From assembly GCA_913056395.1 (NCBI GenBank), contig CAJXMG010000003.1, positions 1 through 64,000 on the forward strand: a DNA stretch of 64,000 nucleotides, read 5' to 3'. Position 1 is the stretch's first letter, and each line of letters begins with the position of its first letter. The stretch is from an uncultured bacterium (lineage in GTDB: Bacteria; Planctomycetota; UBA8108; UBA1146). This document shows positions 26,668 through 30,791 of this stretch, one piece after another. A program made the position numbers and the translations under genes. The notes beneath the pieces are model-generated. The model ran no database searches and was not told the DNA's origin. It saw only the letters and a program-made list of their open reading frames with translations.

Positions 26668-26806
26668 GCCGGCCTCCAGAGTGTCCACGTTTTGCCATTT
26701 TGGATGATCCCCCACAGGGAAACGGATCGGGGATCTGCTAGACTCGGGGCTTCATGAGATGGTCCTGTCACAGGACTTCAGCATACCTTCGAAAGCGGGA
26801 TGTGAT

Positions 26807-27760
26807 ATGCCCAAACTTCTCTACAGCCTGGTGATCCTTGCACTCACCCTGTTGCCGATCAGTACGTGGGGACAGGGGGGACTTCTCGATGAACTCGAGG
26901 AAGAGGTTCCCTGCTCGGCACAATTGCTCGCGGAGGTTTCTGCTTTTCAGCCGGGAGCTCCCTTCGAGATTGGAGTCTGGGTCGAGCCGCTCCCCGGTTG
27001 GCATGGCTATTGGCACTCTCCAAGGGATGGGGGAGATCCCCCGGAGGTCTTTTGGGATCTGCCTGAGGGCTGGAAAATTTCACCGGCCCGGTTTCCTGCG
27101 CCGGTAAGGATGGTTGAGCCGGGGGACCTGATCGCGTACGGCTACAAAAAACCTTTCATGTTGCTGTACACGGCGACGCCACCTGCCGAACTGCAAGAGG
27201 GTCAGAGCACGATTCACCTCTCCGGAAGTGTGACCTGGCAGGTCTGCAAGACCACCTGTCTTTACGGTGAGAGCGACCTCAGTCTGAAGCTGGAAGCGGC
27301 CTCACAGCCGGTGATCAATCAGGAATCGAGCAAGCGGATTCGGGGCTGGGTCGCATCGATTCCGCTGAAGAAAACACCGAAAGGCTTCCTGGTGGAGCAG
27401 GAGTGGGTCCCGGCAAAGGAAAAGGGCTCCATCGCTGGCCAATGGGTGATTCGCTGGGCCAGAAAAGGGGGCGACCGCAGGCCCGCCATCCCGGTTCGGT
27501 GGCAAGTCTTTCCCCATTCACTGGTTGCGGGGATTCTGGACGAGGCCAAACCGGAGCGCTGGGTTCCGGACTCGAGCATCCACAAAGGCCTGGCGGTCGG
27601 AAATCAGGTCACAATTGTGGTGCGAGACGTCGGAGAGGGCTTCCATTCCGGGCTCTTGGGTGCCACGATGGTCCCCAATCCGGGGAAGGCGAAAGGTCCT
27701 GTCTCCGGCTTCCCGGCGTTCGAGTGCCGGGGGAAAGCGGCAGATCCGGAGAAACGGTAA
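26807..27760 (+). CDS. DsbD N-terminal-domain-like periplasmic thiol-disulfide protein
   Basis: A secreted protein of about 317 residues with signal peptide MPKLLYSLVILALTLLPIS. It matches the N-terminal (alpha) domain of DsbD/ScsB, which receives electrons and passes them to periplasmic partners. Marks are PGWHGYWHSPRDGG, a hydrophobic beta region, and the redox cysteine pair WQVCKTTCLYGE, here CxxxC as in DsbD-alpha. It lacks the membrane part of DsbD, so it must receive electrons from another protein. The start at 26807 is preferred over 26759 because it gives a clean signal peptide. It lies 55 bases before the redoxin gene, and the two are probably one thiol-redox operon. Confidence 0.8.
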   Translation: MPKLLYSLVILALTLLPISTWGQGGLLDELEEEVPCSAQLLAEVSAFQPGAPFEIGVWVEPLPGWHGYWHSPRDGGDPPEVFWDLPEGWKISPARFPAPVRMVEPGDLIAYGYKKPFMLLYTATPPAELQEGQSTIHLSGSVTWQVCKTTCLYGESDLSLKLEAASQPVINQESSKRIRGWVASIPLKKTPKGFLVEQEWVPAKEKGSIAGQWVIRWARKGGDRRPAIPVRWQVFPHSLVAGILDEAKPERWVPDSSIHKGLAVGNQVTIVVRDVGEGFHSGLLGATMVPNPGKAKGPVSGFPAFECRGKAADPEKR

Positions 27761-27815: not shown

Positions 27816-28424
27816 ATGAAGCCGATTATGACACTGCTGGCCCTGATTCTGGTTCTTTCTCCGCCGCTGTTCTCGGCGGATGACCACAACCACGACGGTT
27901 GCGAGAACTGCACCTGTGGCCAGAAAAGCGAAGACATCAAATCCAGTGCTTCCGATGAACAGGGAAAGTTCAACTTCTCCCTCAAGGATCTCGATGGAAA
28001 GCTCCACGACTCCGCCAAGATGAAGGACAAGATCATCGTTCTTGAGTGGACCGAGAATGGCTGCCCCGCAGTCAAGCCGCTTTACAAGGCAAACAAGGTT
28101 CAGAAGGCCGCGGCAGCCCTCAAGGAAAAGGGTGTGCACTGGTTCTCTGTCTGCTCCACCCACTACAACACCGTGGCAGGGCTGAAGAAGTTCAAGGAAG
28201 CCAACAAGGTTGAGCACAAGATCCTTCAGGATTTCGATGGCAAGTTCGGCAAGAAGATCGGTGCCAAGCGAACCCCTCACGTGTTCGTGATCAAGAATGG
28301 CGAAATCCTTTACCAGGGTGCTTTCGACGATCGTCGCTCCGGTGAAAACTACGTCATGAAGGCCGTGGATGAGATTCTCGCAGGCAAAGAGGTCTCGACC
28401 CCGAGAACTCGGGCGTATGGCTGA
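27816..28424 (+). CDS. Secreted redoxin (AhpC/TSA, PRX-like) with TGA at the conserved C-terminal Cys position
   Basis: A 202-residue redoxin as conventionally read, with signal peptide MKPIMTLLALILVLSPPLFS, a short Cys/His-rich segment (DGCENCTCG) and a peroxiredoxin-like domain (active-site region LEWTENGCPAVKPLY, then TPHVFVIKNGEILYQGAFDD). The start has a perfect AAGGAGG. The reading stops at TGA (28422-28424) in the context R-A-Y-G-TGA-S-I-K-Y-K-K-S-TAG. From memory, members of this family end in a motif close to Y-G-C-S-[VI]-K-[YW], so the TGA stands where a conserved Cys is expected. A hairpin follows at 28439-28459. The gene may therefore encode a 210-residue selenoprotein ending at 28448. 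If not, the protein has lost its last eight residues. Confidence 0.88.
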   Translation: MKPIMTLLALILVLSPPLFSADDHNHDGCENCTCGQKSEDIKSSASDEQGKFNFSLKDLDGKLHDSAKMKDKIIVLEWTENGCPAVKPLYKANKVQKAAAALKEKGVHWFSVCSTHYNTVAGLKKFKEANKVEHKILQDFDGKFGKKIGAKRTPHVFVIKNGEILYQGAFDDRRSGENYVMKAVDEILAGKEVSTPRTRAYG

Positions 28425-28459
28425 AGCATCAAGTACAAGAAGTCGTAGTTGACGACTTC
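28425..28459 (+). promoter_or_regulatory. Candidate bacterial SECIS hairpin after in-frame TGA
   Basis: Fourteen bases after the TGA is a perfect 8-bp stem (GAAGTCGT 28439-28446, ACGACTTC 28452-28459) with a five-base loop AGTTG. The loop G at its second position lies 23 bases after the TGA. As remembered, the general bacterial SECIS model asks for an upper stem of about 4-16 bp, a small loop with a G in the first two positions, and that G some 16-37 bases from the UGA; this element meets those terms. It is separate from the terminator hairpin that follows. Function is inference. Confidence 0.5.
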
Positions 28460-28479
28460 AAAACGGTCTGAATGATCAC

Positions 28480-28521
28480 GCAGGAGCCCGGAAGGTGACC
28501 CTTCCGGGCTCCTGCTTTATT
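28480..28521 (+). terminator. Strong intrinsic terminator after the redoxin gene
   Basis: A perfect 16-bp inverted repeat (28480-28495 with 28500-28515), very GC-rich, with loop TGAC and followed by TTTATTT. It ends the DsbD-N/redoxin unit and leaves room for translation to pass the TGA and reach the TAG at 28446-28448 before the hairpin. Confidence 0.92.
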
Positions 28522-28658
28522 TGGGGTGAGATTCCGGGAACTGTTCCCTGATTTGATTCCGACCTGAAGTTCCGAGAGGGTACTCCATCACCATTGGCTA
28601 GGGTAAAACGCCAATTCCCTGTAAAATGATGATCTACCCCATTGTTCGAGGAGCCTCT

Positions 28659-30791
28659 GTGAACCCCAGGAATTTAGTGATCGTCGCCCTGATTCTGGTC
28701 GGCGTCATCTCTATCGCCTTCATCCTGTTGCCCTCCGGGTCCGATATGCCCGGAGTCGGGAGTGAATATGGCGACTCCTACGGTGGAGGTGATTTCTCCG
28801 GTGTAGGTGGCTCTTCCGGCAATGGAGAATCGGGTTCATCCGACAGCGGTTCCTCTGACACCGCAAACGGCCTTAGCGGCAGAGTCAGCGATGGATCCTA
28901 CGGGGATTCGAGCTCTGGATCAGGCTTCGATCGAAACGGGGGGCAGGGAATTGGTGATCGTCCGGGACTGAACCGCGGTCAAAATAGTGGACGGAGTGGA
29001 AGCTCCTCGAGAGGGACTTCCTCAAGTCTTAATGGTGGTAATGGCCGAAATGGCTCCAACCAAAACAGCTCCTCGCGAAATGGCAACAATCGCGGAAGAT
29101 CCTCCAGTTCTGATGAAAATCGATCAGGGGCCGATTCAGATGAGCGAGTTCGTGTTGGTGGAATGATTTGGGAAGAGTCTAAAAATTCTGCTCTCACGGA
29201 AGTCAATGGACAGTTGGAAGTGGGGATTGATAACCGGACTCTTTCAGTCGATGTCAGAAATGGGTCCTTCGCTTTTGAAACTCCTGCGAGTGCAATGATT
29301 CGCTTCTACAGTGCTGTTCTTGATGACAGACCAGCACGAGTGATTGCACCGTCGACTCCTGTTCGTGCCCAGTCTTCTGGAGCGGTCCGGGTCTTTGTTC
29401 GATACGATGCTCTTGCCACTCTCAATGTGCTTTCTGCAGAAACCGGTCAGCCCCTGACAGGCATCGAGGTTGTCAGGCTGCAGGACTTTCATCGCAGTAC
29501 ACTGGAGCACCCCGGTTGGGCCCTTCCTGCGGACTACCGTCTCGAAGAGAGTCAGTCCCCCGTATCTCTGGATGGACGGCTGGGGATGATTGGCTCTGCA
29601 GTGGTCCTCCACGTCAGGGCCGCGGGACATGAATGGAAGCGTTTGACTGTCGATCTGGTAGCCGGTGGTGAACGGGATGTATTGCTGTTTCCAGCAGCGG
29701 ATCTGAATCTGGTTCTCGATGGTGCGATCTATCGGAATGACATTAAGTTACGCATTCGCCCCCCGGAGTCTTTCGGAATGCCCTACATGGAGATGCCCAT
29801 CGAGGGAGTTTCCTCCCAAATGATCCAGGGATTGCTGAGCGGAACGTGGAACGCCTCTCTGGAATCGGGTCACTGGAATCTGAATCCCACCGTCTACGCC
29901 GAAACCCTCTTTGAAGTGCAGCTCAATGAGCAGAACGTACTTTCGATGACGGTTCCTGATGACGACGAAGATCGTTCGGAGCTGGCAGGGACTGTTTTCG
30001 TACCCAATGGCTGGTATCTCGATAATTTCAGTGTACGTATCCGGCCAACCGGTGCAGGAAGTGATCCCGTCAATGATACTTTGACCCTGCCCAGTGCAGA
30101 GATGGGAGTCGAGGAAATCGGTGGTGGACTTCTCTACACCTGGGGACCTGTCATGGTGAAGTATGGTTCCTACGGAATCCTCGTGTTGCCGGTGGGTGTC
30201 GGAGATCTCTTCGAGGTAGGTGAAGAAGGTGTCCTCAACGCTGATATCGAGCTGCCTCCCCCCGTCGATGTTCAGGTAACCACATTGATTGAAGGTACAG
30301 CTGGAGAGTTGGCAACACCGGGGTTGATTCGTTGGGCTCCGGTTCGTCCCCAGGGAGTGCCCGGGGCGGGGGCGGTGCCTATTCCCTCAATCGAGGACGG
30401 CCTCTTCGAGTTTCAGGCGCCGGTGGGTGACGTCATTATCTCAGTGTCAGATCAGGCATACGTACCGAGACACAAACAGGTCACCGTGACCTTCGACGGT
30501 GAAAACCAATTTGAAATCGAACTGACACCCGCTATGGGAATGTCACTGCTTCTCGACAACAACGGAACCTCGATTCCTTGGGACATCAGTTGGCACCCAC
30601 TGGTTGAGCCACGTGAAAAGATTTTGACACGGGGAAGAACAGGCAGTGGCTATCGGATACTGGTCAAGGAACAGGGCGAGTACATCGTTGATCTTCCAGA
30701 GATGGATGGGTTCTTTCCTGTGGATCCCTTCCCGGTGATGTGTGTCCCCGGGGAAGTTCTGGAAGTGGTGATTCCCCTCGAGGCCGAGTAG
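28659..30791 (+). CDS. Membrane-anchored Ser/Gly/Asn-rich protein with repeated beta-sandwich domains
   Basis: A protein of about 710 residues that I do not recognise. A single membrane segment (LVIVALILVGVISIAFILL) is at the N-terminus. About 130 residues of low-complexity Ser/Gly/Asn/Arg sequence follow, then an extracytoplasmic part made of short beta domains that resemble carboxypeptidase regulatory-like or transthyretin-like repeats (ATLNVLSAETGQPLTGIEVVRL, VFVPNGWYLDNFSVRIRP, VGDVIISVSDQAYVP). I place the start at the GTG at 28659, since GAGGAG precedes it by five bases; an ATG at 28626 is unsupported. The linker would let the domain reach across the cell envelope. The role is unknown. 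Confidence 0.72.
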   Translation: MNPRNLVIVALILVGVISIAFILLPSGSDMPGVGSEYGDSYGGGDFSGVGGSSGNGESGSSDSGSSDTANGLSGRVSDGSYGDSSSGSGFDRNGGQGIGDRPGLNRGQNSGRSGSSSRGTSSSLNGGNGRNGSNQNSSSRNGNNRGRSSSSDENRSGADSDERVRVGGMIWEESKNSALTEVNGQLEVGIDNRTLSVDVRNGSFAFETPASAMIRFYSAVLDDRPARVIAPSTPVRAQSSGAVRVFVRYDALATLNVLSAETGQPLTGIEVVRLQDFHRSTLEHPGWALPADYRLEESQSPVSLDGRLGMIGSAVVLHVRAAGHEWKRLTVDLVAGGERDVLLFPAADLNLVLDGAIYRNDIKLRIRPPESFGMPYMEMPIEGVSSQMIQGLLSGTWNASLESGHWNLNPTVYAETLFEVQLNEQNVLSMTVPDDDEDRSELAGTVFVPNGWYLDNFSVRIRPTGAGSDPVNDTLTLPSAEMGVEEIGGGLLYTWGPVMVKYGSYGILVLPVGVGDLFEVGEEGVLNADIELPPPVDVQVTTLIEGTAGELATPGLIRWAPVRPQGVPGAGAVPIPSIEDGLFEFQAPVGDVIISVSDQAYVPRHKQVTVTFDGENQFEIELTPAMGMSLLLDNNGTSIPWDISWHPLVEPREKILTRGRTGSGYRILVKEQGEYIVDLPEMDGFFPVDPFPVMCVPGEVLEVVIPLEAE

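Follow-up and report, generated by a model that had tools for sequence, protein, structure and literature searches.

A 2026 inventory of prokaryotic selenoproteins holds 119 families (PMC13188914), and the selenocysteine (Sec) motifs of its redoxin and peroxiredoxin types include UxxC, UxxU, UxxS, TxxU, CxxU, and UGC; its Table 1 gives, for example, a Redoxin selenoprotein (PF08534, UxxC) and a Prx-like thiol:disulfide oxidoreductase (PF00578, UxxC/UxxU). Both this inventory and a list from 2022 (PMC9312934) treat different Sec positions within one domain as different subfamilies. Three sets of solved structures, 2YWI from Geobacillus, 3U5R from Sinorhizobium, and 2CVB/2YWO from Thermus, share with the protein described here the whole-domain fold and a tail motif of the GC[STN]IKW type. 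At the tail site, however, 2YWI (GCSIKW), 3U5R (GCNIKW), and 2CVB (GCTIKW) carry cysteine and not Sec, and in 2YWI and 3U5R the presumed cis-Pro loop reads ACTP, with a cysteine adjoining the TP that is missing from the planctomycete proteins. The tail cysteine of these structures aligns with residue 203 of a redoxin encoded in a 64,000-nucleotide stretch of planctomycete DNA (the window), where the codon is an in-frame TGA. From sequence comparison, we put the probability that this TGA encodes selenocysteine at about 0.94 (Table 1).

Table 1. Features of the redoxin locus, in window coordinates, with the evidence for each.
Feature	Position	Strand	Evidence
DsbD_N-like gene, CxxxC motif VCKTTC, 55 bases before redoxin	26759..27760	+	PF11412, 9e-13
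Predicted secreted redoxin gene, 210 residues, putative Sec at 203	27816..28448	+	frame, Pfam, alignment, AlphaFold, fold search
TGA read as probable selenocysteine, residue 203	28422..28424	+	TGA in 16/16 family genomes; Cys elsewhere; sel genes
SECIS-type hairpin, 8-bp stem, loop AGTTG at 28447-28451	28439..28459	+	stability, covariation, folding
Predicted true stop TAG, supplying the conserved loop G	28446..28448	+	frame; TAG preference of Sec genes
Rho-independent terminator, 16-bp, separate from SECIS	28480..28515	+	terminator search

The redoxin frame passes from its ATG through RAYG to the TGA at codon 203 and continues AGC ATC AAG TAC AAG AAG TCG TAG, the codons beyond the TGA reading SIKYKKS. 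Residue 203 thus lies eight residues from the C-terminal end, in a predicted tail YGUSIKYKKS. Re-reading the window reproduced exactly the frame given in the original prediction (R-A-Y-G-TGA-S-I-K-Y-K-K-S-TAG) and bore out all that it had said about the sequence itself. The protein has a signal-peptide-like N-terminus and a thioredoxin fold, with Cys83 in a GCP motif. It matches the Pfam families Redoxin (PF08534, 9e-10; 38.9 bits, above the curated cut-off of 26.6) and AhpC-TSA (PF00578, 2e-8), its AlphaFold model has a block-mean pLDDT of at least 90 over residues 51-210, and its best fold matches are 3u5r, 2cvb, and 2ywi. A Cys/His-rich N-terminal part, HNHDGCENCTCGQ (window 27885-27926), is confined to a subset of the genomes of the genus and could bind metal.

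The TGA and the residues around it are conserved. A protein search (118 relatives) showed that each of the family's 15 other genomes has an orthologue, at 39-99% identity, whose frame contains exactly one TGA, and in 16 of 16 family genomes, among them MAGs from several separate projects, the TGA stands at codon 203; a sequencing error was rejected because separate MAGs have the TGA in common. A search of genome contigs returned only close relatives (Planctomycetota MAGs) and one weak match. In each of the 16 family genes [A/P]YGU leads into a tail with V/I, K/R, and Y/F at fixed places, in most of them as [ST]-[VI]-K-[YF], and more distant planctomycetes have YGCSVKY, YGCTVKY, or FGCSVKY at the same site. 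The family tail had been given as Y-G-C-S-[VI]-K-[YW] in the original prediction, which proposed aligning homologues at codon 203; homologues, solved structures included, carry Y-G-C-[ST]-[VI]-K-[YW], and the alignment places Cys at that codon in other planctomycetes as well as in 2YWI, 3U5R, and 2CVB. Across 29 aligned homologues, only Cys83 and position 203 are Cys or Sec in every row, and the GCP-type cysteine and the tail motif both recur in 2YWI, 3U5R, and 2CVB. A pseudogene tail was considered and rejected.

If the TGA were instead an ordinary stop, the last eight residues would have been lost, and the tail and the hairpin behind it would be leftovers, the hairpin perhaps part of a terminator region. 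TGA does terminate several Cys homologues right after YGCSVKY, and the region, folded as a single sequence, is no more than moderately unusual (z -1.9). Against this, the frame and motif past the TGA are kept in every family genome, compensatory changes in the stem extend past the TAG, and many further families of planctomycetes also have TGA at this codon, only alongside Sec genes. We consider an ordinary stop very improbable; the variant raised in the original prediction, that the last residues were lost recently, is excluded by the close relatives, which keep the tail, always with TGA.

Where Sec lies close to the C-terminus, part of the SECIS must fall past the stop codon, and here the hairpin straddles the TAG. 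It has the form GAAGTCGT-AGTTG-ACGACTTC and begins fourteen bases past the TGA, its stem is perfect, and 23 bases separate the TGA from the loop G at 28448, all of which (8-bp stem, loop, offset, and spacing) the original prediction had exactly right. The stem is closed by the T of the TAG, and the remaining AG makes up loop bases 1-2, so the stop codon itself supplies the loop G. Published limits for bacterial SECIS elements (PMC13188914) are a loop of 3-9 nt, a stem of 4-16 bp, a G within loop bases 1-2, a UGA-to-loop distance of 16-37 nt, and an MFE of -7.5 or lower; with 8 bp, the loop AGUUG, 22 nt from UGA to loop, and -9.4 kcal/mol (-10.9 kcal/mol when the first 11 nt are left out of the fold), the hairpin falls within all of them, in agreement with the SECIS-range spacing first claimed for it. 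When the 60 bases past the TGA are shuffled, about 0.3% of the shuffled sequences form a hairpin of equal stability. For the window RNA alone, a different fold, one that draws in the UGA, is slightly better (-11.8 kcal/mol), and only the consensus favors the hairpin; we rely on the consensus fold because the single-sequence structure is ambiguous. The family consensus is the same hairpin, with double-sided compensatory change at five of seven pairs, the pairs having been counted both ungapped (with added genes of another family) and by the consensus fold of the alignment. What weighs decisively against chance is the recurrence of TGA, tail, and hairpin in 15 other family genomes, with compensatory changes in the stem. 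Within 60 bases downstream of the codon, the bacterial limits were satisfied in 16 of 18 TGA genes as against 0 of 12 Cys genes; four TGA members (L034, L086, L090, and L112) lie outside the simple bacterial SECIS model. The hairpin was also considered as a terminator, a reading that was rejected because a distinct one lies further downstream, where a separate strong terminator had been predicted.

The machinery for Sec insertion is encoded in the source genome (2.77 Mb, 95% complete). A search for selA, selB, selC, and selD had been proposed, and selA, selB, selD, and a tRNA-Sec were all found: selA, selD, and the tRNA gene are neighbors on contig C5, selB is on C13, and ARAGORN types the tRNA as Sec with anticodon TCA (UCA). 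The SelD gene of this cluster (G000:C5:63187-64110, L017) holds one TGA, in ASCAGUAAKL, the known Sec site of SelD; SelD is thus itself a selenoprotein gene of this genome. Reassignment of TGA throughout the genome was rejected on the ground that TGA is an ordinary stop in the Cys homologues of related genomes. Another amino acid could in principle be inserted at low level, giving two protein forms, since UGA is read by near-cognate tRNAs in bacteria, for example as tryptophan. Relatives nearly always have Cys at the site and rarely Met or Thr, however, with Trp or Arg never observed; the hairpin obeys the SECIS rules and goes together with the TGA, and the TGA is restricted to genomes with selA or selB, and we therefore regard such readthrough as extremely improbable. 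Machinery, conservation of TGA and tail, Sec/Cys pairs, and hairpin covariation all support the reading of the codon as Sec.

We searched 392 planctomycete genomes with a profile and then read further stretches. The same codon is TGA in many further genomes, which belong to about fifteen families and include distant forms ending in YGUSIKR; in all, 42 genomes have TGA at the site (16 in the family and 26 further), with the flanking sequence conserved on both sides. At a strict threshold, selA or selB was found in 42 of 42 TGA genomes, and neither in 11 of 26 genomes with Cys only (Fisher p 5e-6, uncorrected for kinship). In seven of the Sec genomes only one of selA and selB turned up; all seven are draft assemblies, and incompleteness is the likely cause. 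A quick tree of 72 rows, built with site 203 left out and containing some long branches, places at least four switches between Sec and Cys on well supported branches and nine by parsimony. Among the Sec genes whose stop could be read, 34 of 42 end in TAG, as compared with 4 of 19 Cys genes (those not picked for an inside TGA), a difference likewise uncorrected for kinship. We think it probable that these genes form a phylum-wide, uncatalogued subfamily of extracytoplasmic redoxins in Planctomycetota, in which Cys and Sec have switched repeatedly and the SECIS of the family overlaps the stop codon, such that the choice of TAG is selected.

Several members depart from the common pattern. In some genomes the redoxin is present twice, either once with Cys and once with Sec or with Sec in both copies (L084 and L109 in G253; L097 and L103 in G337), and distant members (L110-L113, L118-L122, and L140-L143) have TGA at the site within motifs like YGU[S/R][I/V]KR, with Arg for Tyr. 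The source genome encodes one more redoxin of this family (L115, G000:C2:97478-98557), which keeps the first Cys and has Met at the tail site (PYGMAIR). Two related planctomycete genes (L106 and L107) have Thr there, in YGTRVRY and YGTRVKY, which indicates that the C-terminal Cys/Sec can be lost.

If the TGA is read as Sec, SelB with Sec-tRNA(UCA) would bind the hairpin straddling the TAG and decode the TGA, and the product would be a secreted redoxin of 210 residues in which the C-terminal cysteine of the PRX-like redoxin family (2YWI, 3U5R, and 2CVB) has been replaced by Sec. The protein is most likely a thiol:disulfide or selenol oxidoreductase acting outside the cytoplasm, in which Cys83 and Sec203 would form a reversible selenenylsulfide and electrons would pass to or from the adjacent DsbD_N-like CxxxC protein. 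Cys83 stands where thioredoxins have their first Cys, and there is no other invariant thiol, making the Cys83-Sec203 pair the natural reading, one that we hold with modest confidence. Alternatively, Sec203 may be real and the enzyme a peroxidase of the peroxiredoxin type, with Cys83 as the peroxidatic and Sec203 as the resolving residue. The matches to Redoxin and AhpC-TSA in Pfam would fit this, as would Bcp1 and Bcp4 among the fold neighbors. However, the peroxiredoxin motif PxxxTxxC/U is missing; Cys83 sits instead in WTENGCP (the site reads WTENGCPAVKP), a setting that resembles that of the first Cys in the CxxC of thioredoxins, the nearest folds beyond the direct family are ResA-type oxidoreductases, and the fixed neighbor is a DsbD_N-like protein. 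A peroxidase, which would alter the predicted function and leave the Sec assignment in place, is in our judgment unlikely, although a good deal less so than either alternative to Sec at codon 203.

The partnership with the DsbD_N-like protein is about an even call. Its gene lies directly upstream in 13 of 13 other family loci that we examined, even where the remaining gene order is lost, and both cysteines of the CxxxC are kept in all 12 loci in which the motif could be aligned. It is absent at all four of the more distant Sec redoxin loci examined, and the protein would therefore be a partner in the source family at most; the neighbor named in the original prediction holds as a feature of the family and not of the distant Sec members. 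On the other side of the redoxin, the next gene (window 28626-30791) encodes 721 residues with an N-terminal Ser/Gly/Asn-rich stretch; the product has no Pfam match, and the gene is conserved and follows the redoxin in most genomes of the family.

With these proteins, the C-terminal cysteine of the redoxin/PRX-like fold would join the positions at which Sec is found. The annotated versions of dozens of planctomycete proteins probably stop about eight residues early and lack the redox residue. Close relatives that differ at this one site in having Cys or Sec offer a natural test of the benefit of selenium in an extracytoplasmic thiol enzyme, and the overlap of SECIS and stop codon is a clean case of SelB decoding and termination sharing one short RNA.

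The selenoproteins with PF08534 and PF00578 share their Pfam domains with the window redoxin, and discovery through Sec/Cys pairs is likewise common to both, but their Sec lies in UxxC/UxxU, whereas the window redoxin keeps the Cys of GCP and has its putative Sec in a C-terminal YGU[S/T/A][V/I]K. The UGC-containing Prx-like/TlpA-like selenoproteins (cd02966; NF041054, WAxxUGC) are also thioredoxin-fold proteins related to ResA/TlpA; their Sec is in the UGC motif, and the window protein does not match NF041054. The window protein reaches the cut-off of no NCBIfam model, its only match being ResA at 18 bits against a cut-off of 170, and for the other homologue rows no model among the best matches covers the tail motif. 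UXX-star, KCU-star, and SaoC resemble the window redoxin in having Sec near the C-terminus, but they belong to other families (Grx-like, DUF466, and Cys-Cys-COOH), none of them a redoxin with a YGU tail. Sec at such a tail of a redoxin is absent from the table of PMC13188914 and from NCBIfam. Since the inventories separate subfamilies by the position of Sec and place none at the YGU tail, the window redoxin looks, by its sequence, like a new subfamily of a well known kind of selenoprotein.
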